Source: a virus
Reading direction: 5' to 3' (one strand)
IMG/VR virus record: IMGVR_UViG_3300031708_000010
Coordinates: 1-45,328 of that record
Length of the DNA stretch: 45,328 bases
This document shows, piece after piece, positions 524 through 44,310 of this stretch. The notes beneath the pieces are model-generated. The model was not told where the DNA came from. It was given only the letters and a program-made list of their open reading frames with translations, and did not search any database. Numbering within the stretch: position 1 is the first letter of the stretch; every line of letters starts with the position of its first letter. The translations under genes and the position numbers were made by a program.

Positions 524-1831
524 ATGAAGTTTGCACGTCTCGCGGGCGCGCTGCTTGTTGCCTTCACCGCAGCGGCGCTCATCATCAATGCCCCCGGCCT
601 CCTCCGGGCAGCTGGCGATTATCCTGGCCTGCCGCAGGTCGGCATTCCCCAATACCAGTTCCCGACCGGTACGGAGGTCGTCCCAGCCGATACCGGCCTG
701 GCAGGGGGCGTTTTCCCCCAGACCGTGACAATGCCGCCTAGCGTGATCGCCGGCACCACCTGGGGCTCGCCGCGCAATTTCCTCGGCAACGGTGCGCTCA
801 ACATCACCAACACCCAAGGCACCGCGACGGTGACCTGCGCCACCACCTCGGCGGCAACCACCGCAGCTCTGTCGGCAGACCGTTGGATGTGCGATGCGAA
901 CGTGGGCTCCGGCGCCGGGAACACGGCGATCGTGACCACCGCGCCAGCCCCGCCGGCTGGCTTTACGAACGTCATGAAGGTCAATAGGGCCTCGGGGTCG
1001 CTGACGCAGCCCATTTGCGTGTGGAGCGCGGTGCCGACCGTCCAGGCGGCCCAGCTCGCCGGCCAGACCGTAACGTTGTCAGCCTATGTGGCGGCCCTCG
1101 CCACCCTGACTGCCGACAACGGCAACGTGGCCAATCTGGTCATCATCGCCGGCAGCGGCACAGATCAGGGCCTCAACGCGTCGTGGACGGCCTCCCCGGC
1201 CATCACGCCCGCGTGGACGAGCATCGCCACGGTGGTTAACACCCCGATCCTGCTCACGACCACATTCGCGCGGTTCTCGACCACGACCGCGATCCCGGCG
1301 ACCGTCGGCGCCTCGCTGCCCGTAACGGAGGTCGGCGTCGGCCTATGCTTCACCCCGACCGCGAATACCGTGGGCGTCACGGCGGCCACCGACGGATTCG
1401 CCTGGACGGGAGCGCAGCTCGAAAAGGCCCCTGCGGCCTCGCTGTTCGAGTTCCGCGCGAAGGCGCAGGAGAACCTTGAGGCCCAATACTACATTTATGC
1501 GCTCAAGGAAGGTGCCGCGACGACCACGCGGGCTATGTGCATGGCCTCGACCACCACCTTGGCCATCTGCGGCCTGAAATTTCCGGTGGCCATGTACAAG
1601 GTGCCGACCATGAGCTACGCGACCGGCTTCGCCACCGCGACGACCACCGCCGGCTCGACGCTCGGCGCATGCACCACGTTGCGGACCTCGACGCTAGTCA
1701 CCGGCAACGCCCCCAGCAACGAGGGTGTGCTCGTCGATTGCGTCGCCGGCACCGTGCCAGCGGCGGGCTCGGCCGACTATCTGGCTGACAACGCAGGCAC
1801 CGGCATCATCTGGGCATGGACCGGCCTCTGA
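524..1831 (+). CDS. Exported tail-associated, carbohydrate-binding-like protein
   Basis: A 435-residue protein. The start ATG at 524 is set by AAGGAG six bases upstream. Residues 1-30 form a Sec signal peptide (basic MKFAR, then a long hydrophobic core ending near LLRAA). The body is rich in Thr, Ala and Gly and predicted all-beta. A segment around residues 85-310 reads like a jelly-roll module of phage receptor-binding proteins: a paired-cysteine beta-sandwich, then a WTGAQLEKAP-type strand that often ends such modules, with FEFR and AQYY after it. The C-terminal 110 residues look like a second beta domain. It probably binds or decorates a surface; no catalytic motif is seen. A signal peptide is unusual on a virion protein. 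Confidence 0.6.
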   Translation: MKFARLAGALLVAFTAAALIINAPGLLRAAGDYPGLPQVGIPQYQFPTGTEVVPADTGLAGGVFPQTVTMPPSVIAGTTWGSPRNFLGNGALNITNTQGTATVTCATTSAATTAALSADRWMCDANVGSGAGNTAIVTTAPAPPAGFTNVMKVNRASGSLTQPICVWSAVPTVQAAQLAGQTVTLSAYVAALATLTADNGNVANLVIIAGSGTDQGLNASWTASPAITPAWTSIATVVNTPILLTTTFARFSTTTAIPATVGASLPVTEVGVGLCFTPTANTVGVTAATDGFAWTGAQLEKAPAASLFEFRAKAQENLEAQYYIYALKEGAATTTRAMCMASTTTLAICGLKFPVAMYKVPTMSYATGFATATTTAGSTLGACTTLRTSTLVTGNAPSNEGVLVDCVAGTVPAAGSADYLADNAGTGIIWAWTGL

Positions 1832-1885
1832 TCGCTTGGTCCCAGGCGCGTTCCCCGTGCCTTCCCAGCGCGCGCCAGGGATCAC

Positions 1886-1917
1886 GAGGGGCGGCCCGCC
1901 GGAATCGGCCGCCCCTC
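1886..1917 (+). terminator. Intergenic GC-rich hairpin
   Basis: An 11-bp perfect stem (1886-1896 with 1907-1917) and a 10-nt loop sit between two plus-strand genes. No T-run follows; a 15-nt tandem repeat begins at its 3' foot. It may be an attenuator or an RNA-end stabiliser rather than a full intrinsic terminator. Confidence 0.45.
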
Positions 1918-1945
1918 CCATGACTTGACCTCCCATGACTTGACC
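1916..1945. repeat. Two tandem copies of a 15-nt unit
   Basis: The unit TCCCATGACTTGACC occurs twice head to tail (1916-1930 and 1931-1945) between a hairpin and the next ribosome site. Each copy contains ATG then TGA in a near-useless frame. It could be a slippage duplication or a protein-binding repeat; the sequence does not decide. Confidence 0.85.
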
Positions 1946-1967
1946 ACGTAATCGGAGTCTCCCGACC

Positions 1968-2291
1968 ATGCCTAGCGTAAATGGATCGAATGTCTCCTCG
2001 CAGCTCCCGCTCAGGGAGCCCGTCGGCGCAACGACCATGTCGCCGGCCGCTGCCGGCGCGCCGGCGACCAACATCGCGGTGCCTGCCCCGGCCACGCTAA
2101 AGATCAATGGCATCTCCACGCCGGTGCTGAATCTGCGGTATCTCCAGCTAATCGACGTCGTTAACATCATCAACGCGATGGGGACGGGAACCGTCGCCTC
2201 GATCGATTACTACGGCCACCTGCATCTCACAAGCCCGAACGGCGTCGTGGTCGGAGGCGACACCGCGACGCGTGCGGTCTTCGGTATATGA
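1968..2291 (+). CDS. Unknown small protein upstream of SGNH hydrolase
   Basis: A 107-residue protein with an Ala/Pro-rich first half and a second half with a NIINAMGTGTV segment and likely beta strands (SIDYYGHLHL). It has no signal peptide and no cysteine. The start ATG at 1968 has a weak GGAG-like site. Its TGA at 2289-2291 directly abuts the ATG of the SGNH gene at 2292, so the two are probably translationally coupled. I do not recognise the family. Confidence 0.55.
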   Translation: MPSVNGSNVSSQLPLREPVGATTMSPAAAGAPATNIAVPAPATLKINGISTPVLNLRYLQLIDVVNIINAMGTGTVASIDYYGHLHLTSPNGVVVGGDTATRAVFGI

Positions 2292-3758
2292 ATGTCGAGT
2301 GGGGGGCCAAGTGGGGGGCCAAGTGGGGGGCCAAGTGTGGGGCCAAGTGTGGGGCCGAGTGTGGGGCCGAGTAGGAGATCGCTAGTCCTCGCCGCTCCGG
2401 CGCTCTTGCTTCCATCGCGATTGCGTGGCGCTGGCCTCTCCAGCTCGATCTCGCCTCAGCTGGGCGGTGGCATCGGAAACGCGTTCGATGGGGGCATCTC
2501 AAGCGTCTCTGCTTCTTTCGTCAACTCGTCGCTGAACATCGTCGCGGTCGGCGACAGCATCACGTCAGGCATCGCAGTTTCTCCGTATCCTTGGCCGCAG
2601 ATGATCGGCGACGGGTTGGCCGTGACGGCCTCGAACGAGGCGACGGCATCCATCGGTTGGGCCTGGAATACGAGTGGGGCCAAGACGACCCCGAACTTGA
2701 TCAGCCTAGCTGCAACCCAGGTCGATCCGCTTCTCAACGCCCCCAATTCGCCATGGTTGATCCTGTTCGCGGGGACGAACGACATCACCTACGGCGACAC
2801 GGCCGCACAGGCATATGCCTCGTTCCAGACTTATATTGCTGCGCGCCTTGCGGCGGGATGGCCGGCGGCACGCATCATCGTCTGCACTATGCTACCCCGC
2901 GGTTCCGCGGTAGAGGCCGCGCGCACTCCATACAACGCCTCGCTGGTCTCCGGCGCATCGACATACGGCTACAAGCTGGCGCGTCTCGATCTCGATCCCA
3001 ATATCGGTCAGGCGAACCAGAACACCAACCCCGAGTTTTACGAGCAGACATTCGCGATCCACCCGAACATCGCCGGGATGACCATCGTTGCCAGCGACAT
3101 CGCTGCCATTTTTGCCCCGGGGCGCTCTCTTACCGCTTGGAGCAGCTACGATAACAGTACGGGCGGGAATCTGTTTACCATATCTAATCAAAATTTAAGC
3201 GCTCGTGTTGTTGCAGACGGCGTAGGTTTTTGGGCAACCATACGTGCGTCGACGGCCCGCTTTGCCGGCAAGCTCTACATCGAGTTCAGGTGCACGGCAT
3301 CCGGAAGTGACCCCAACTACGCATTTGGTCTTGCCGGTTACGCGTATTATAATACGTCTTCAAATTATCTAGGCGGCGGTAGTATGACCGGAACTTACGA
3401 TAGCAGCTGCGGCGGCTACTTCGATATGGTTAATAATTTAAACGCATCAGGCGGCTTTACGTCGGGAGCCGGTACGATGCCGGTGGCTAACCCTGCATTG
3501 AACGACGTAATCGGGATTTTGACGGACTTTACGGCGGGGAAGGTATGGCTCGCCAGGAATAACCTGAACATCGGAACAGGGGCCGCACCAAACCCGACTA
3601 CCGATCCAGCGCAGATCACCTTTACCCCGGCCACGGTTGGCGCGTTGTTTCCAGGAATGACTGCCTCCACCCCCAATGCCGATGGCACGTGGGTGTTGCA
3701 GGCCACCGCGGCAAGCCAAACCTATTCACCCGCCTCCGGCTTTTCGGCCTGGGGATAG
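2292..3758 (+). CDS. Tat-exported SGNH/GDSL hydrolase with SPRY-like C-terminal domain
   Basis: A 488-residue protein. After the SGGP/SVGP repeats (residues 3-26) comes a Tat-like signal, SRRSLVLAAPALLL, with the arginine pair at 28-29. An SGNH esterase domain spans about 80-270. It has GDS with nucleophile Ser89, the GTND block with Asn163, and a final-block His256 in HPNIAG; the usual aspartate at H minus 3 is not evident (FAIHP). Residues about 280-488 look like a SPRY/concanavalin-type sandwich (the strand run IGILTDFTAGKVWLARN is typical). SGNH enzymes of phages usually remove acetyl groups from surface polysaccharide; that substrate is an inference. The enzyme domain is a clear paralogue of the N-terminal half of the protein at 36717-38924. 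Confidence 0.8.
   Translation: MSSGGPSGGPSGGPSVGPSVGPSVGPSRRSLVLAAPALLLPSRLRGAGLSSSISPQLGGGIGNAFDGGISSVSASFVNSSLNIVAVGDSITSGIAVSPYPWPQMIGDGLAVTASNEATASIGWAWNTSGAKTTPNLISLAATQVDPLLNAPNSPWLILFAGTNDITYGDTAAQAYASFQTYIAARLAAGWPAARIIVCTMLPRGSAVEAARTPYNASLVSGASTYGYKLARLDLDPNIGQANQNTNPEFYEQTFAIHPNIAGMTIVASDIAAIFAPGRSLTAWSSYDNSTGGNLFTISNQNLSARVVADGVGFWATIRASTARFAGKLYIEFRCTASGSDPNYAFGLAGYAYYNTSSNYLGGGSMTGTYDSSCGGYFDMVNNLNASGGFTSGAGTMPVANPALNDVIGILTDFTAGKVWLARNNLNIGTGAAPNPTTDPAQITFTPATVGALFPGMTASTPNADGTWVLQATAASQTYSPASGFSAWG
2298..2369 (+). repeat. Six in-frame copies of a 12-nt repeat
   Basis: Three copies of AGTGGGGGGCCA are followed by three AGTGTGGGGCC(A/G) variants. They encode SGGP three times then SVGP three times at the extreme N-terminus of the SGNH hydrolase, just before its twin-arginine motif. 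Copy number of such a G-rich tract should vary by slippage, changing the length of the leader without breaking the frame. Confidence 0.95.
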
Positions 3759-3767
3759 GAGACTGTA

Positions 3768-4277
3768 ATGCTTAGAAGAATCGCGGACGCGCTGTACGCG
3801 GCGATGACCCCGATCGGCATCAAGATGATGTTGAGCGTGGTGCTTATGTGCGCCCTTCTTTGGGCCGCCCGCGGCCAGACTCCTGTAACTGGCGCGCCCG
3901 TCCAGGGCGTCGCGCAGTATCGCCAAACGGTCAACGGGGCGGCGAATATTACGACTGGCCTTACCTATCAGCTGTTACTACCCGCGCTTGCCGGAACCAC
4001 GACGGTCCGGCAATCGATTACGGTGCAGAACAATCAGGCCTCGGGGACGGACGTCTGCTATCTCATTTTCGGAAGCAACGTCACGATCGTAGCCGGCACC
4101 ACGACAACGTCGTCGACCAGCATCGTAACCGGAAACAGCGCTCTTACCGCAGCCAAGGCCTCGATCGTGCTCACCCCAGGGCTGGCCTGGACGCGGTATT
4201 TTCCGCTGGTACCGTCCGACGCCATCTATGTGACATGCGCCACTACCGGCGACTCGGTATATGTCGACACCCAATAG
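3768..4277 (+). CDS. Exported small beta-rich protein
   Basis: A 169-residue protein whose first 37 residues contain a hydrophobic segment (MMLSVVLMCALLWAA) followed by a small-residue site. This suggests a late-positioned Sec signal peptide or an N-terminal anchor; the methionine at residue 26 or 27 could be a closer start. The rest is Thr/Ser-rich with paired cysteines (DVCYLIF and YVTCATT). This is the pattern of a small beta-sandwich cap domain that also appears at 18484-19020. GGAG stands upstream of the ATG at 3768. The end overlaps the next gene start by 17 nt. Function unknown, probably tail- or surface-related. Confidence 0.5.
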   Translation: MLRRIADALYAAMTPIGIKMMLSVVLMCALLWAARGQTPVTGAPVQGVAQYRQTVNGAANITTGLTYQLLLPALAGTTTVRQSITVQNNQASGTDVCYLIFGSNVTIVAGTTTTSSTSIVTGNSALTAAKASIVLTPGLAWTRYFPLVPSDAIYVTCATTGDSVYVDTQ

Positions 4278-6132
4278 GAGAACGCTACTACTCGCAACCA
4301 CGGCGGCGCTCTTGCTTCCATCGCGACTGCGTGGCGATGGCCTTTCCGGCTCGATCACACCTCAATCTGGCGGCGGCATCGGAAATCTGTTCGATGGGGG
4401 AATTTCCTCCAAGTCGTCCAGCGGGCCACCCGTGCCTCCCCCCGCACAGGCTTACGGCCTCACTACCAGCTTGTTCGCCGATGACTTTACAACGACGTCC
4501 ACAATCGATATGGCGAACACAGGGGCGCCTGGGTTCAACTGGTACTTGAAGCAGGCGTGGCCGCATATCGTAGATACAGGTGCTTTCCCGTGGAGTTACT
4601 GGCAGTCTGCTGCGGCCACGTCACCGGGTGTGATCTCACAGAGCGGTTCCGTTGTCACGTTGGCGAGTGATAACGTCGGGAACGATGTTGTCCTCAGTAC
4701 GGCCTGCTCTAACGGGACCGGGTATGTAGGGAGTGTATTCGGGGCGCAGAGCCTGTACTACGAGTTCTCTATGGCGTTTGACCCGACACTATCAAACGAT
4801 AGCGGGACGCCACCACAAAGCGTGCGCGACCCGATAGGGTGGACAGTAGGCATTAACTTTGCCACGGGACTCGCAACTACATATACAGAGCTGGATATCT
4901 GCGAGTGCGGGAGTACTGTTGCCGACGTCATACACCCGTATTTTGCCTTGCATGATTGGACCACTACGGCATCTACGGCGTCATCGACTGTAAACCCAAA
5001 CTACAACTCTTTCTCAGGGTCTCCAACCTATACCAATCAGAATGTATTCGGTGCACTTGTATTGCTGCCCGCCGACAATGGCGGGGTAGGAGTAGTTAAG
5101 TTTTTTTTGAACAATGTCTATCTGCCGGCGCAGGATGTACAATTCGCCGCGACCGGACAGTTTAGCGCACTGCAGACGCAAAAAGCTTTCATGATCATAA
5201 GCGCTGGCCTTTCATGGCCGGTTCACTACGACTTCTTTCGGATATGGGGCGGCACTGTCAGGTTGCCCGCGCCGACCGTTTCCGGGCTCTCCCCGACCTC
5301 TGGCGTCTTGGCCGGCGGAACGGCCGTGACGATCAGCGGAAATGCGTTCACGGGGGCGACGGCGGTACACTTCGGGGCTGCATCCGCTTCGTTCTCGGTA
5401 ACCAGCGACAACACGATCGCGGTGGCGTCTACTCCAGCTGGTACTGGCATCGTGGACGTTACGGTGACGACGCCGCAAGGAACGAGTGTCACCAGCGCCG
5501 CCGACCAGTTCACCTATCAGATAGCCACGACGACATTCGACCCGGCGAACTTGGGAACAAATGTCTCGCTGTCCAACGGAAATGTGACCGCAACCATCAG
5601 CACGAATACGGCAAGCTATGTTGGTGCGCGGTCCGTAGTCAGCCACTCGACGGGCAAGTACTACGCCGAGGTTGCCTTTACGGACAGTGGCGTGAACCTG
5701 CCAGGAAACTATAACGTTGGAGTGCAGAACAGTTCCGAGAGCATGTCCGGTTACCTGGGGTTCACCGTCGACTCCAATAGCGGCGGGGTGTTCGGGGATA
5801 GCGGAATCTTCTACGTCAACTCAGTCGCCCAAGGAACCGGTGCCGGTACGTGGGGAGCTGCTCCGGTCATCAGCGTGGCATTCGATGCCGGCGCAGAGCT
5901 GTTCTGGTTCTCGCTGAACGGCGGACTCTGGAATAACAGCGCGACGGCAAACCCCGATACCGGAGTTGGCGGGTTCTCAGTCTCAGGTGTCGGCGGTCCA
6001 TACTTCTTTGCCGCGCGTCTAAATGGTTCCAGTGCGGGCTCGACTGCACTTACCGCAACAGTCAACTTCGGGGCAAGCACCTACACGTACAAAGCGGGGT
6101 TCGGAAACGTGACGACGTTCGGGAACTGGTAG
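4261..6132 (+). CDS. Tat-exported GH16-like / IPT / SPRY-like depolymerase candidate
   Basis: A 623-residue protein. Residues 1-25 resemble a Tat signal (NRRTLLLATTAALLLP). Residues 20-50 nearly repeat the same stretch of the SGNH protein at 2292 (LLLPSRLRG..L, then GGGIGN.FDGGISS). Residues 70-330 look like a concanavalin-fold glycosidase with E210-L-D212-I-C-E215, matching the ExDxxE catalytic signature of glycoside hydrolase family 16; a HDW follows, as in that family. Residues 335-425 form an IPT/TIG immunoglobulin-like domain (SPTSGVLAGGTAVTISG). Residues 430-623 look like a SPRY-type sandwich. Role inferred: breakdown of a surface or extracellular beta-glucan-type polymer. The GH16 call is from the motif and strand pattern only. 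Confidence 0.65.
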   Translation: MSTPNRRTLLLATTAALLLPSRLRGDGLSGSITPQSGGGIGNLFDGGISSKSSSGPPVPPPAQAYGLTTSLFADDFTTTSTIDMANTGAPGFNWYLKQAWPHIVDTGAFPWSYWQSAAATSPGVISQSGSVVTLASDNVGNDVVLSTACSNGTGYVGSVFGAQSLYYEFSMAFDPTLSNDSGTPPQSVRDPIGWTVGINFATGLATTYTELDICECGSTVADVIHPYFALHDWTTTASTASSTVNPNYNSFSGSPTYTNQNVFGALVLLPADNGGVGVVKFFLNNVYLPAQDVQFAATGQFSALQTQKAFMIISAGLSWPVHYDFFRIWGGTVRLPAPTVSGLSPTSGVLAGGTAVTISGNAFTGATAVHFGAASASFSVTSDNTIAVASTPAGTGIVDVTVTTPQGTSVTSAADQFTYQIATTTFDPANLGTNVSLSNGNVTATISTNTASYVGARSVVSHSTGKYYAEVAFTDSGVNLPGNYNVGVQNSSESMSGYLGFTVDSNSGGVFGDSGIFYVNSVAQGTGAGTWGAAPVISVAFDAGAELFWFSLNGGLWNNSATANPDTGVGGFSVSGVGGPYFFAARLNGSSAGSTALTATVNFGASTYTYKAGFGNVTTFGNW

Positions 6133-12246: not shown

Positions 12247-13138
12247 CTATTTCCTGTCTCACGTGTTCGACAAGGACAACGAAGGCGCTCCCGGCGATGA
12301 TGCCGTGGACCAGTCGGCGGGCGGTCAGCAACTGGGCAAGGCGCCCGCCGACAATCCCCCTGCAGGCGATGCCGCGGCCAAGGAAAAGCCACCGAAAGAG
12401 CGCTCCCGCGACGACGTCGTCAACGACCGCTTTGCGGAGCTGACGCGCAAGAACACGGAAGCCGCGGCCTTGGCCGCCAGGGAGCGCACCCGCGCCGAAA
12501 ATGCAGAGCGCGAACTGCAGGCGGCTCACGAGCTCCTCGCTCGCGCGCCGAAAGCCGGCGATCTTCCCACTCCCAATGCCGATGACGCGCCGCCGCCCCA
12601 GCCCGCTCGGCGCCCGCCGCCCTTCCGCCCGGTGATCGAGGAGCGATCGATCAATGATATCCTCAATTCCGAAGAGGGCCGCGCCGCCATCGCCAAGCAG
12701 GCCGCGGCCGAGCGCGCAGCGGCGGATATTTCGGCCCGCGGCGATGAAATCTATGAAAGGGCCGTCGCCGAATTCGGCCAGTCCAAGGTTACCAAGGCGC
12801 TATCCAATTTCAAGATTTTCGACGGCATCAAGCCCGAACTCGCCGAGGCCGTGTTCGAGCTGGGCGACGATGCGGCGGCAGTCCTGATGGAGATCGCCTC
12901 GAAGCCGGCGGTCATCGAGAAGCTCTACGCCGCCACGCCCGCCCGCATGGGCGCCATGGTCGCGGCGCTCGCCACCACGGTCAAGAAGCCGGCGATCTCG
13001 AAGGTCGGCGAGCCGCCCGGCGAAATGGGCGGTCGTGGTAATGCAGGGTCAGCCGACCTGACCAGCAAGGACACCACAATGGCGGACTGGGTGCGCACGC
13101 GCGAGGAAGACCTCAAGCGCCGGGGCGTGCGGATTTAA
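12239..13138 (+). CDS. Head scaffold protein
   Basis: A 299-residue protein just before the coat gene. It is strongly charged and helix-forming: an acidic/proline N-terminal third, a coiled-coil stretch (TEAAALAARERTRAENAEREL), a Pro-rich linker near residue 120, and a compact helical C-terminal half (SNFKIFDGIKPELAEAVFELG). This size, position and composition are standard for scaffold proteins of the P22 type, which guide coat assembly and then leave the prohead. No protease motif is seen. Family assignment is by context and composition, not by a diagnostic motif. Confidence 0.75.
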   Translation: MRNYFLSHVFDKDNEGAPGDDAVDQSAGGQQLGKAPADNPPAGDAAAKEKPPKERSRDDVVNDRFAELTRKNTEAAALAARERTRAENAERELQAAHELLARAPKAGDLPTPNADDAPPPQPARRPPPFRPVIEERSINDILNSEEGRAAIAKQAAAERAAADISARGDEIYERAVAEFGQSKVTKALSNFKIFDGIKPELAEAVFELGDDAAAVLMEIASKPAVIEKLYAATPARMGAMVAALATTVKKPAISKVGEPPGEMGGRGNAGSADLTSKDTTMADWVRTREEDLKRRGVRI

Positions 13139-13373
13139 ATTTACATACCCGCACTGCGGCCGGGCAAAGCCGCTGCGCCCCTCTTTGGCGGGGTCAAATG
13201 CCAATGCGCTCGCCTCGGACCGAGTCGAAACCCCGAGAAAACCCCGTTCAGATGCGCCGCGGTTACCGCGGTCCCTAATTCTTCTGACGGCCACCCGTTC
13301 ACCGCATGACGCGATGAGCGCCGAACCATTGCGCGCTGCGGAGGCACGCGCACGGCCATAAAGGAAAACTTCC
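13139..13373 (+). other. Leader region of the coat gene
   Basis: A 235-nt non-coding stretch between scaffold and coat genes. It holds a self-complementary element at about 13258-13272 (CCGCGG, three bases, CCGCGG) and other GC-rich inverted segments. It ends in AAGGAAA (13361-13367), the ribosome site of the coat gene. It may carry a promoter or a structured leader for high coat expression; no convincing -35/-10 pair is visible. Confidence 0.4.
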
Positions 13374-13475
13374 GTGGCGAATCAACTCCTAACCATCAAC
13401 ATGATCACGCGCGAAGCTGTCAGACTCTGGAAAAACAGTAATGCGTTTATCCAGAACGTCGATATGCAATACGAT
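13374..13475 (+). CDS. Major coat protein, exon 1 (residues 1-34)
   Basis: GTG at 13374, seven bases after AAGGAAA, opens a frame encoding VANQLLTINMITREAVRLW and ending MQYD at the splice point 13475. Without splicing it would stop after one more codon (CGG TAA). This is the usual N-terminus of P22-type coat proteins of this group, and the later part of the protein resumes in frame at 14242. The joined product (exon 1 plus exon 2) is 405 residues, close to the 400-430 expected. The exon ends in T, as required for the conserved U-G pair of a group I 5' splice site. Confidence 0.85.
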
Positions 13476-14241
13476 CGGTAACGACCAGTCGTAGTAAAAC
13501 CGCCTTAATTGCTGGAAACCCCTTAGAGCCTTCGACACCACAACGTAGCCGGCAACGGCAAGCGTGACGGTCTGAAAAGTCGGTGGATTGGGCAATCAGC
13601 AGCCGAAGTCCTCTTGATCGGAGGTCGAGGTTCAGAGACTATCCCGGAAGGGAGTAGGCACCAAGCGGTGCCGAAAGAGGCGGCTTCAGATGATCACGAA
13701 AGACCTCAATCGTCGCTTTTGGTCCAAGGTAAACAAAGTCACGTCCACATTTTACAATGGCACTTGCTGCCACGAGTGGACAGCATCGGTCGACACCGCT
13801 GGATACGGTCAAATCAGGAATGGAAAGCTGGCGCTCGCGCATCGGTTGGTGTGGGAGATGTTGGTCGGTCCAATTCCAGATGGCGAGCAAGTTCTCCACC
13901 GATGCGACAATCGGAGATGCGTCAATCAAGATCATCTCTTCCTTGGAACCAATGACGACAACATTGCAGACAAAGTTGCCAAAGGGCGAGCCTCTCGTTT
14001 GAAAGGCGCCACCAATGGCAATTCCAAGCTGACCGACACGCAAGTTTTGGAAATTCGTACTGCCATCGGCTCGCAACGGGCCATCGCCAGACAGTACGGC
14101 GTGAATCAACGGTTGGTGTGGGCCATCAAGCACAAGGTCATGTGGTCTCATATCTGAATGATGATATAGCCCGCTCCCCGCACGAAAGGCGGGGCTGCCG
14201 AAAGGCGGACGGCAATTAGCGATTGTCGTCGAACATAAAGG
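13476..14241 (+). ncRNA. Group I self-splicing intron in the coat gene
   Basis: The intron is 766 nt and shows the core elements in order. P1: exon end UACGAU (13470-13475) pairs fully with the guide GUCGUA (13488-13493), with U-G at the splice site. P element AATTGCTGGAA is at 13507-13517 and Q element AATCAGCAGCC at 13594-13604; their TGCTG and CAGCA parts form P4. R element GTTCAGAGACTA is at 13630-13641. The S element GATATAGCCC (14163-14172) follows the HNH gene. P7 (R with S) has one A-C mismatch next to the guanosine site. The intron ends in G (14241). Exon joining restores YD-DSFAQTG in frame. An HNH gene sits between R and S, in the P8 region. Confidence 0.9.
13690..14157 (+). CDS. 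Intron-encoded HNH homing endonuclease
   Basis: A 155-residue protein lying wholly inside the intron. The HNH core spans about 25-100: CHEW, then AHRLVWEMLVGP, then HRCDNRRCVNQDHLFLGT and N at DDN, with Cys pairs that usually bind structural zinc. The C-terminal 45 residues (NSKLTDTQVLEIRTAIGSQ then AIARQYGVNQ) form the helix-turn-helix module that gives DNA specificity in such enzymes. Known role of the family: cutting intronless alleles of the same gene so that repair copies the intron. The expected target is therefore the exon junction in an intronless coat gene, an inference. GAGG lies ahead of the ATG. Confidence 0.9.
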   Translation: MITKDLNRRFWSKVNKVTSTFYNGTCCHEWTASVDTAGYGQIRNGKLALAHRLVWEMLVGPIPDGEQVLHRCDNRRCVNQDHLFLGTNDDNIADKVAKGRASRLKGATNGNSKLTDTQVLEIRTAIGSQRAIARQYGVNQRLVWAIKHKVMWSHI

Positions 14242-15357
14242 GACTCTTTCGCCCAAACGGGCGCGAAGATCGGCACCGCACTACGTATCCGCCTGCCGAA
14301 CGACTTCACGCCCCGCACCGGTGCTGCGGCGAGCATACAAGACACATCCGAACAGTCGACCACGATGGTATTGGCGACCCAGCAGGGCGTCGACCTGTCG
14401 TTTTCGTCTGTCGACCGCACCATGAGTTTGGACGACTTTGCCAAGCGCATTCTCGCGCCGGCCATCAACATCATTGCCGGCGCCGTCGCGAACACGGTCA
14501 TGGTCGGTTCCGAGGGCGGCGTCTGCAATTACGTCGCGAACGTGGACGCTGGCAATAATGTCCTGAGTCCGACCGCGCAGACGTATCTCAATGCCAACGC
14601 GAACCTGAACCGCAACTCGGCGCCGCTCGGCAACCGCAAGGTCGTCAACACGCCGGACACCGAGGCCAAGATCGTCGGCGCTCTCGCCGGCCTCTTCAAC
14701 CCGCAGCCGGAGCTGTCGCGCCAGTACCGCACCGGCACGATGCAGCAGGCGCTGGGCTTCGACTGGTTCATGGACCAGACCGCGATTGCTCACACGGTGG
14801 GATCGTACAATGGCGCTGCTACCGTCAGCGGCGCAGGCCAGACGGGCACCTCCGTCGTCACCGGCGCAATCGTCGGAACGATAAACCAGGGAGACTTCAT
14901 CACCTTCGCCGGCGTCTTCCAGGTCAACCGCATCACAAAGGCGAGCACTGGCGTACTGCGCCAGTTCACCGTGACGGCCCCAGTCGCCTCGGGCGGAACC
15001 TCGATCCCGATCTATCCCGCGATCATCCCGTCGGTCGGCGGGCTCGCACAGCAGTACCAGACCGTCACCGTCAGTCCGGCGAACGCGGCCGCGATGCTGT
15101 TCGTCGTGAATGCAAACGCGACGTACCGCAAGAACCTCGCGTACGCGCCCGAGGCCATCACGATGGCCACGGCCGACCTCGAACTGCCCGGCGGCGTGCA
15201 CGAAGCCCACCGCGAGGCCTTTGATGGCATCGCGATCCGCATGGTGACCGCGTACAACATCACGACCGATCAGTTTATCACCCGGCTTGATGTGTTGTAC
15301 GGATTTTTGTACGTGAGGCCCGAGTGGGTGACTTGTGTGGCGGACTCCATTCCCTGA
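14242..15357 (+). CDS. Major coat protein, exon 2 (P22 coat-type)
   Basis: Encodes residues 35-405, opening DSFAQTGAKIGTALRIRLPN and continuing TTMVLATQQGVDLSFSSVDRTM. The first in-frame methionine is at 14365, but 41 well-formed exon codons precede it, so 14365 is not the true start. The protein shows the P22-coat pattern: an N-arm, a spine helix (DDFAKRILAPAINIIAGAVAN), an inserted beta domain (about 205-330, GDFITFAGVFQVNR) and a C-terminal strand set. About 415 copies make the T=7 shell in P22; the copy number here is inferred. It is followed by its own 84-nt spacer and a coiled-coil protein gene. Confidence 0.92.
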   Translation, partial: DSFAQTGAKIGTALRIRLPNDFTPRTGAAASIQDTSEQSTTMVLATQQGVDLSFSSVDRTMSLDDFAKRILAPAINIIAGAVANTVMVGSEGGVCNYVANVDAGNNVLSPTAQTYLNANANLNRNSAPLGNRKVVNTPDTEAKIVGALAGLFNPQPELSRQYRTGTMQQALGFDWFMDQTAIAHTVGSYNGAATVSGAGQTGTSVVTGAIVGTINQGDFITFAGVFQVNRITKASTGVLRQFTVTAPVASGGTSIPIYPAIIPSVGGLAQQYQTVTVSPANAAAMLFVVNANATYRKNLAYAPEAITMATADLELPGGVHEAHREAFDGIAIRMVTAYNITTDQFITRLDVLYGFLYVRPEWVTCVADSIP

Positions 15358-15441
15358 TAAGTCAACCACTTAATCGCCAAGTCTAACGGGGTTGGCGGAT
15401 TGAAACACCGCCACCTCGAAAATCACAAGGAGTAATGCACC

Positions 15442-16407
15442 ATGCCCATGGAAGACAACAAGCAGGCCACCCCGGAAGAGATGAAGGCGCGCGAGGTCAA
15501 GGCCAAGGAGAACCTCGATAGGCAGGCGCGCGAGGCGCGCGAGGCGCGCGATCGCGAGGCCGCTGCTGCGAAGAGCGCGACCGACAAGCAGAATGCGGAA
15601 AACGACAAGCGGAATAGCGAAACCGACAAGCAGAATGCAGACAAGCAGGCGGCCCTTGTCGCGGCCTCGCAACGCGCCCGCGACCAGGCCACCAAGCCGG
15701 CAGCGGTTCATGTGAACGAACTGATGGGCGACCCGGCCCCCAAGAAGACCGACCCGGCCCCCAAGACCGAGGCGCGCCGCTATGACGACGCCCCCCCGGA
15801 ACAGAACTGGGAACTCCCCGACGGCACCACGCGCCAGGTGCTCAAGGATGGTTCGACCGTATATTTGCTGCCGGACGGGACGCAGCGGCACGAGCATGCG
15901 GGCCAGCCATCGCGATACTTCCTGCCTTCGAACGTTGCCGCGCTCGACGCAAAGTCGGTCGATGACATCGCGGAGAAGGTCCGCGGTCATGTCGACCTGA
16001 ATTACAGCCAGAAGGTCCACCCCGACCAGCAGCACATGCAGGCCGTCGCGAAGCAGGTCACCGAGAAGCTTGGGATGGAGCCGAACGCGCTCAACGTTAA
16101 CCATGTTGCCGGGCTCATCAACGAGCACGTCGCTCGGCCGAGCGCGGAATATCCGAAGATGTTCTACGACCACGCCGCGCACCGCGAGATCACGGTCGCC
16201 AACCGCAAGGAAGAGGACGACCTCGGCCCCGGTCTACTGCCCTACCACTGGAGTGCGCCGAAGCCGGAAGAGGCAGATATGCCTGCGGCGAAGCCGCCAG
16301 AAGGTGGAAAGAAGTGGCCGACGACCGAGGAAGGGTGGCGAGACGTCAATCGACCCCACCCAGCGCCCGTCCCCAACCGAGTAGAACCGTCCCCAGGCGA
16401 CGCGTAA
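15442..16407 (+). CDS. Coiled-coil protein downstream of the coat gene
   Basis: A 321-residue protein with AAGGAG before ATG 15442. Residues 10-95 are a long charged coiled coil built from short DNA repeats (a GGCGCGCGA unit near 15527-15550 gives AREAREARD, and DKQNAE recurs). The middle (110-150) is a Pro/Asp linker ending in a small beta motif (LPDGTTRQVLKDGSTVYLLPDGTQ). The C-terminal half is helical with HPDQQHMQAVAKQVTEKLG. Its place after the coat gene suggests a minor head or maturation protein; no family is recognised. The 3' end overlaps a minus-strand gene by 62 nt. Confidence 0.6.
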   Translation: MPMEDNKQATPEEMKAREVKAKENLDRQAREAREARDREAAAAKSATDKQNAENDKRNSETDKQNADKQAALVAASQRARDQATKPAAVHVNELMGDPAPKKTDPAPKTEARRYDDAPPEQNWELPDGTTRQVLKDGSTVYLLPDGTQRHEHAGQPSRYFLPSNVAALDAKSVDDIAEKVRGHVDLNYSQKVHPDQQHMQAVAKQVTEKLGMEPNALNVNHVAGLINEHVARPSAEYPKMFYDHAAHREITVANRKEEDDLGPGLLPYHWSAPKPEEADMPAAKPPEGGKKWPTTEEGWRDVNRPHPAPVPNRVEPSPGDA

Positions 16408-43368: not shown

Positions 43369-44310
43369 TCAACCTCCCTGGTCCGCCTTGTCCGCAATCG
43401 GCTTGAGCCGATCCTTTGTAACCTCAAGTTTTTGCTTGAGCATCTTCGGAATTTTCTCCCACGCGCTGCGCAGCGATTCCTGTCCGTTCGCCGCGGCCTC
43501 TTCGAGACCATCGCGCAGGCGCATGATCTCATCATCATCGCCAATCAGCTGCGAAGACGTCGGCGTCTCTTTGTTTTGAGGTGGAAACACCTCTCCTGCC
43601 TCGCCGTCGATGATGACGACCTTGTCAGGGCTGATCCACGCGTGCTTGCCCTGTTCCTCGTGGGCCTCGTCCATGCGCGCCCCCAACGTCATCACGTTTA
43701 GTGGAAGCGACCGGGAAAGCCGACGCTTCCCAGATTTTTCGCACATCGCGGGGAACCCTATTGCAGGATCGTTCCACGGTGAATCAGATCGTTGTGCGCC
43801 GGGAGACCTGGCCTTGATGGCGATAAGATCGTCGATGCCGAGCACGTTGACAATGGCAGGACGTCCGATTGCCGTGCCGACGGCCCAACTAGCGATTATG
43901 CGCCCACGATTTCCTAGCACAGGTTTATGCCTGACGAAGGCACTCGATCCGAGTTCGTAGTCGAATTCATCACCATCACGCACCACAGAGCCTGTGATGG
44001 TGATCCCGCTGCGCGCCGCCATAGTTACATAGCCCTTATAGCCTATGACGAGTTGGGCTTTGTTTTTGAAGGGCAGAACATAGGCCTGCCCTGTTATGCC
44101 GTCGACCTCAAGACCAAGACAGGCCGCGCTCATAGCCGCATTGAACAGGCTTTGCCTATCGCATTCAAGCAGCTTTGGCAACCGCTCCACCGATATCTTG
44201 AGGGTGCGCATCAGGCGAGCGACCGGCATCGTATTCCCGAGCACCTCTGCGAAGCGCGGGGCGAGCGGGGCGAGCTGGCGTTCGAAGACGACCAGTGAAT
44301 TATCCTGCAT
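43369..44310 (-). CDS. recT: RecT-family single-strand annealing protein
   Basis: A 313-residue protein of usual RecT length (269-330). The core has the family pattern: LLECDRQSLFNAAMSAACLG LEVDG, then AYVLPFKNKAQLVIGYKGYV and EFDYELG. A later helix-rich region (AMCEKSGKRRLSRSLPLN) contains basic residues suited to DNA binding. The acidic/helical C-terminus (DEIMRLRDGLEEAAANG) is commonly variable. RecT anneals complementary strands during phage recombination and works with an exonuclease, encoded just upstream. It overlaps that gene by 11 nt. Confidence 0.88.
   Translation of the reverse strand: MQDNSLVVFERQLAPLAPRFAEVLGNTMPVARLMRTLKISVERLPKLLECDRQSLFNAAMSAACLGLEVDGITGQAYVLPFKNKAQLVIGYKGYVTMAARSGITITGSVVRDGDEFDYELGSSAFVRHKPVLGNRGRIIASWAVGTAIGRPAIVNVLGIDDLIAIKARSPGAQRSDSPWNDPAIGFPAMCEKSGKRRLSRSLPLNVMTLGARMDEAHEEQGKHAWISPDKVVIIDGEAGEVFPPQNKETPTSSQLIGDDDEIMRLRDGLEEAAANGQESLRSAWEKIPKMLKQKLEVTKDRLKPIADKADQGG

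Follow-up and report, generated by a model that had tools for sequence, protein, structure and literature searches.

The window, by which we mean the whole virus record of 45,328 bases analyzed here, carries a P22-type coat gene in two exons. Between them lies a group I intron, which in turn encloses a gene for an HNH endonuclease. The features of the locus are all on the plus strand:

13374..13475 (+), coat exon 1, P22-type, 34 codons, GTG 13374 to GAT 13475
13470..13475 (+), P1 5' strand, UACGAU, the last six bases of exon 1, ending in the splice-site U
13476..14241 (+), group I intron, 766 nt, inserted after codon 34 (YD/DSFA), CDS nt 102
13488..13493 (+), P1 3' strand, internal guide sequence GUCGUA, with G facing the splice-site U
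13500..13504 (+), P3 5' strand, CCGCC, from the core alignment
13510..13515 (+), P4 5' strand, from the core alignment and covariation
13596..13601 (+), P4 3' strand, from the core alignment and covariation
13635..13641 (+), P7 5' strand, GAGACTA, R element, with G13637 of the guanosine site
13642..13672 (+), P7.1 and P7.2 hairpins, from the minimum-energy fold
13679..13683 (+), P3 3' strand, GGCGG, overlapping the AGAGG that precedes the HNH gene
13685..13691 (+), P8 5' strand, TTCAGAT, overlapping the HNH start codon by its first two bases
13690..14157 (+), HNH endonuclease gene, 155 aa, intact domain, inside the P8 loop
14152..14158 (+), P8 3' strand, ATCTGAA, enclosing the stop codon of the HNH gene
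14167..14172 (+), P7 3' strand, TAGCCC, S element, with C14170 mismatched with A13638
14242..15357 (+), coat exon 2, 371 codons from GAC 14242, plus the stop codon at 15355-15357
14365..14367 (+), first ATG in exon 2, in frame, judged not to be the coat start

Exon 1 has a ribosome site (AAGGA) about 8 nt before its GTG start and ends with the residues DMQYD; without splicing, it reads one extra codon and then a stop (YDR*). Exon 2 opens without a start codon, and its first residues are DSFAQTGAKIG. The predicted junction 13475/14242 is GCAATACGAT/GACTCTTTCGCC. When the exons are joined, the product has 405 aa, of which residues 1-399 match positions 1-419 of the 423 in the PF11651 P22_CoatProtein profile (E 6.4e-33) and residues 1-398 match the major head protein phrog_283 (E 3.8e-58). 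A full-length coat match is obtained only with the joined product, which counts in favor of splicing. In addition, residues 246-399 match by sequence the putative coat protein 8skg in PDB. The exon coordinates of the original prediction, 34 codons at 13374-13475 and 371 from 14242, are exact. The neighboring genes for the terminase large subunit, portal, and head closure protein Hc3 fit a P22-type head module. We found neither a second coat gene nor tRNA genes in the window. Among isolates, Pseudomonas phage PAE2 alone has a coat relative that exceeds 55% identity.

The coat gene is preceded by a 235-nt gap (13139-13373) without a clear gene, possibly a leader or a late regulatory region. It is followed by a 321-aa frame (15442-16407) with no match in PHROGs and only a sub-threshold Tcp10_C match in Pfam. 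A RecT-like annealing protein (phrog_148) is encoded at 43369-44310 on the minus strand.

Structure of the intron and the mismatch in P7

The covariance model RF00028 matches positions 13438-14194 with 50.8 bits (E 4e-10), a margin of 0.8 bits over the gathering score of 50. The full P1 with a U-G pair at the 5' splice site and the terminal G were predicted earlier, and both are present as UACGAU/GUCGUA and G14241. The minimum-energy fold recovers P1, P3, P4, P5, and P7.2 (z -2.2), and the P7.1 and P7.2 hairpins make the intron subgroup IA-like. Inspection by eye of the guide sequence against exon 2 revealed no clear P10 pairing; P10 is often weak or absent in group I introns.

To the structural evidence we can add covariation. 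The core alignment contains 18 introns: that of the window, 15 more from coat genes, and two from isolated phages. The intron of L082 was left out, as whole-intron MAFFT alignment misplaced it, together with parts of P8. We counted 28 pairs in six helices (P3, P4, P5, P6, P6a, and P7). Standard pairing is observed in 97.2% of cases, compared with 73.7% after shuffling; none of 500 shuffles reached the observed level, which argues that the structure is real and not due to chance. Sliding the helix partners abolishes the signal, and 23 of the 28 pairs show changes on both sides. The group I assignment of the original prediction is thus upheld by the RF00028 match, P1, the terminal G, covariation, and the precise empty sites in close relatives described below.

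The only counted pairs that the window intron does not retain are A13638-C14170 in P7 and one pair in P6a. The prediction had listed all four core elements. P, Q, and R indeed have the standard form, and S is present, reading GATATAGCC, but its P7 mismatch had gone unremarked. The mismatched pair adjoins the guanosine-site pair G13637-C14171, which is present. Among the 18 aligned introns, A-C occurs at this position in the window alone, while the other 17 are paired there; the same position is also paired in the introns of phages LP14, nepoznato, and bajarodcaudo virus 2. The mismatch is the main reason for asking whether the window intron splices well. A real group I intron with a ribozyme weakened in P7 would splice slowly or with a helper protein, and thereby limit the level of coat protein. 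The unique mismatch speaks for this explanation, as do the Rfam score near the threshold and the second-lowest score among coat introns with the family model. However, A-C pairs can be tolerated in some helices. The neighboring P7 pair is G-C in the window, as opposed to A-U or U-A in the other 17 introns, so that the helix is still maintained, and the intron is carried by two near-identical contigs. On balance, we consider a weakened ribozyme rather unlikely.

The HNH gene, empty sites, and the probable need for splicing to make the coat protein

The predicted HNH gene within the intron is confirmed by an intact frame and a match to PF13392 HNH_3 (E 2.1e-15); the protein also matches phrog_1872 (E 2.5e-28), phrog_826, and phrog_59. 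Both its start and stop codons lie within the P8 strands. With the ribosome site in P3 and the start codon in P8, folding of the ribozyme should hide the initiation site. HNH synthesis and splicing are therefore probably mutually exclusive.

The protein encoded in the P8 loop is most likely a homing endonuclease, which would copy the intron into those coat alleles of co-infecting relatives that lack it. Alternatively, a free-standing type of HNH gene could have landed in the P8 loop; it would then not be the homing enzyme of the intron, and intronless coat genes would remain uncut. Outside coat introns, the window HNH is matched best by HNH genes of phages, ES18 gp47 among them, none of which is annotated as intronic, and eight contigs with HNH relatives lack a match to RF00028, as this alternative would suggest. 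A counterexample is provided by L483, whose coat protein is only 37% identical to that of the window. Its coat gene contains a 737-nt group I intron (reverse strand, about 4770-5510) after CDS nt 97, 5 nt from the window site, and this intron holds at the same P8 position an HNH gene whose product is 45% identical to the window HNH. Such an arrangement in a distant coat gene is expected if the enzyme targets the YDDSFA region, and it supports a mobile intron directed at coat genes. We therefore regard a free-standing origin of the HNH gene as improbable.

The closest relatives of the coat gene provide empty sites. The coat proteins of L003 and L004, 88% and 87% identical to that of the window, are uninterrupted at exactly the same codon, and exon 1 is in the same register as in these genes. 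Codon 34 is GAC in both intronless genes and GAT in the window, where it supplies the U required by the 5' splice site. The same intron with its flanks is found in a separate contig, L002, with one change across 12,521-15,500; hence, the window arrangement is not an assembly artefact. A strict DNA pattern derived from the window intron matched only this near-identical contig.

Comparison with L003 also shows selection on both sides of the intron. In exon 1, we observed 17 synonymous and two non-synonymous codon differences, and in codons 35-75, 20 synonymous and two non-synonymous ones, although these counts compare whole lineages and the constraint may partly predate the intron. The constraint on codons 35-75 matches that on exon 1. 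Both flanks are thus maintained as protein-coding sequence, and this speaks against a coat start at ATG 14365. We rejected this start given the constraint and the lack of any ribosome site seen ahead of it; exon 2 has no earlier in-frame start. The prediction was right that a start here would remove 75 residues, even though the start itself is unlikely.

Based on the anatomy, homology, covariation, and empty sites, a group I intron of the phage IA type very probably splits the sole coat gene of a P22-type podovirus after codon 34, splicing would yield the 405-residue coat protein, and the HNH protein most likely serves homing. In the proposed mechanism, the transcript would fold into the ribozyme and exogenous guanosine would attack after U13475. 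Exon 1 would then attack after G14241, and the joined message would encode the coat protein of 405 residues. Since there is no second coat gene, no start before 14365, and constraint on codons 35-75, the original proposal that the coat protein depends on splicing is well supported by inference. The shell would then form only if the intron removes itself from the message. RNA self-splicing would be required for the most abundant protein of the virion, and splicing efficiency would be tied directly to virion yield.

Two other explanations are far weaker. It is very improbable that splicing is unneeded and a 330-residue coat protein starts at the in-frame ATG 14365, with exon 1 as a remnant, as the 75 residues lost would be ones conserved in relatives and exon 1 retains its start, ribosome site, and frame. 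It is equally hard to credit that a coat pseudogene carries a defunct or decaying insert, or that the arrangement is a chimera of assembly: the P7 mismatch could be read this way, but the HNH and coat frames are intact, the L002 contig has the same arrangement, and the window has no other coat gene.

Introns in other P22-type coat genes

Our survey of P22-like coat loci covered about 322 distinct genes. At 364 loci, representing 313 distinct DNAs, the coat gene is uninterrupted. Nine distinct genes contain a total of 20 introns, at the following sites:

Window and L002, one intron, after CDS nt 102
L007 (IMGVR_UViG_3300006104_000065) 2575-5172, with L008 and L258, five introns, CDS nt 97, 1111, 1132, 1149, 1176
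L259 (IMGVR_UViG_3300050821_014534) 1572-4110, five introns, CDS nt 73, 1104, 1122, 1162, 1190
L106:3395-5128, two introns, CDS nt 26, 90
L113, one intron, CDS nt 73
L339:2110-4140, three introns, CDS nt 26, 73, 90
L336, one intron, CDS nt 90
L483, one intron, CDS nt 97
L082 (GenBank MW202674.1) 2501-4016, one intron, after FHVD

Every mapped coat intron is preceded by U and ends in G. P1, the U-G pair, and the terminal G are present in the window intron and 14 other coat introns, and the pairing of the guide sequence spans 4-8 bases in the 15 tabulated. An intron of L007 was considered as a candidate for the window site and rejected, as it follows CDS nt 97 and not nt 102. The sites at CDS nt 26, 73, and 90 are shared among L339, L106, L336, and L113, and the exon between nt 73 and 90 in L339 has 17 nt.

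The most fragmented genes are those of L007 and L259. The exons have 97, 1014, 21, 17, 27, and 36 nt in the former and 73, 1031, 18, 40, 28, and 22 nt in the latter, the internal 3' exons measuring 17-40 nt; each spliced coat protein has 403 residues. RF00028 detects all five introns in both genes, and neither gene contains an endonuclease gene. Contigs from three metagenome datasets carry the L007 gene, one of these contigs being partial. All L259 sites differ from the L007 sites, giving ten sites in all.

Gene callers without intron models split or shorten such coat proteins. An example is GenBank MW202674.1 (L082), whose annotation divides the coat into two CDS and a hypothetical protein. 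Removal of a 265-nt group I-like insert, which Rfam does not detect at E 0.1, yields a single frame of 416 aa.

In the coat phages, family model R1 found introns only inside the coat gene over 2.58 Mb of mostly coat-centered DNA, a result to be read with the bias of that DNA toward the coat gene and the training of R1 on the coat introns themselves. RF00028 applied to whole contigs agrees, with coat-phage introns only in the coat gene.

Introns of the same gene tend to resemble each other, with 65.9% identity against 60.8% expected (permutation p 0.001). In the phylogenetic tree, four L007 introns form a group (0.96), intron 4 of L007 falls with the four C-terminal introns of L259 (0.91), and the nt 26 introns of two phages group together (0.99). 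The coat gene is a repeated target of related introns in related phages. The grouping would be compatible with homing at shared sites as well as with local spread inside one gene. We tentatively suggest, as one possible scenario that we do not favor outright, that introns without endonucleases multiply within the coat gene by reverse splicing or ectopic homing, while the HNH form, represented by the window and L483, moves between phages at YDDSFA. Such multiplication would yield up to five introns per coat gene and exons down to 17 nt. L007 and L259 make the spread of group I introns to new sites testable; their introns, at ten sites, are mostly mutual closest relatives.

Capsid-gene introns in other viruses

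Capsid-gene introns like that of the window are already known from several systems. In mycobacteriophage LittleE, splicing of the capsid intron was shown by RT-PCR and sequencing of the virion protein (PMC3706429). As in the window, a group I-type intron with an endonuclease gene lies in the major capsid gene (PMC3706429). However, the LittleE capsid is of the HK97 type and the endonuclease is LAGLIDADG-like and encoded on the opposite strand, whereas the window has a P22-type coat and an HNH gene on the same strand, in P8. Lactococcal phage Tuc2009, going by its description where it is cited in PMC3706429, resembles the window in having a group I intron in the capsid gene. In crAss-like Zeta and Delta phages, group I introns interrupt MCP genes, one of which is in five pieces (PMC7886860). 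These are large gut phages whose introns were found via endonucleases, whereas the five-intron P22-type genes have no endonuclease and exons down to 17 nt. The MCP gene of Faustovirus E12, a virus of amoebae, combines five group I introns with seven other introns and very short exons (PMC6247863), and in the five introns and short exons of a capsid gene it is similar to the five-intron P22-type coats. Our literature search for capsid-gene introns found none beyond LittleE, Tuc2009, the crAss-like phages, and Faustovirus, although its coverage of subscription journals was incomplete, making absence weak evidence. As far as the literature searched shows, P22-type coat genes with five introns and exons of 17 nt are an undescribed variant.

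Several group I introns per gene, up to three, also occur in Twort and Bastillevirinae (PMC11878797), but mainly in DNA polymerase and terminase genes; the five per gene in L007 and L259 exceed the number reported there. The jumbo phage PhiPA3 shares with the window phage an intron-encoded endonuclease, which in PhiPA3 is a model for interference between co-infecting phages (PMC11620839).

To place the coat introns among uncultivated phages, a pattern search of IMG/VR for this intron class, biased by the pattern itself, returned at least 120 stretches. Among the matches listed, 102 upstream gene fragments form 89 clusters at 70% identity. The commonest hosts among them are major head proteins: phrog_1328 (14), phrog_267 (nine), phrog_1357 (three), and phrog_544 (three). 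By Pfam, again among the matches listed, 14 are SU10_MCP and 13 belong to other capsid families. This suggests that major capsid genes are a leading host of introns of this class in uncultivated phages, beside the genes of replication and nucleotide metabolism that are usually named. Multiple introns are again observed: the SU10_MCP genes at L424:148-1763 and L470:1647-3028 have four and three, respectively, and five RF00028 matches lie in or beside an HK97-type Phage_capsid gene at L421:2985-7712. In L412 (PQ006093.1), the CDS annotated for the major capsid overlaps at its end with a group I intron (1448-1741) and is probably truncated.
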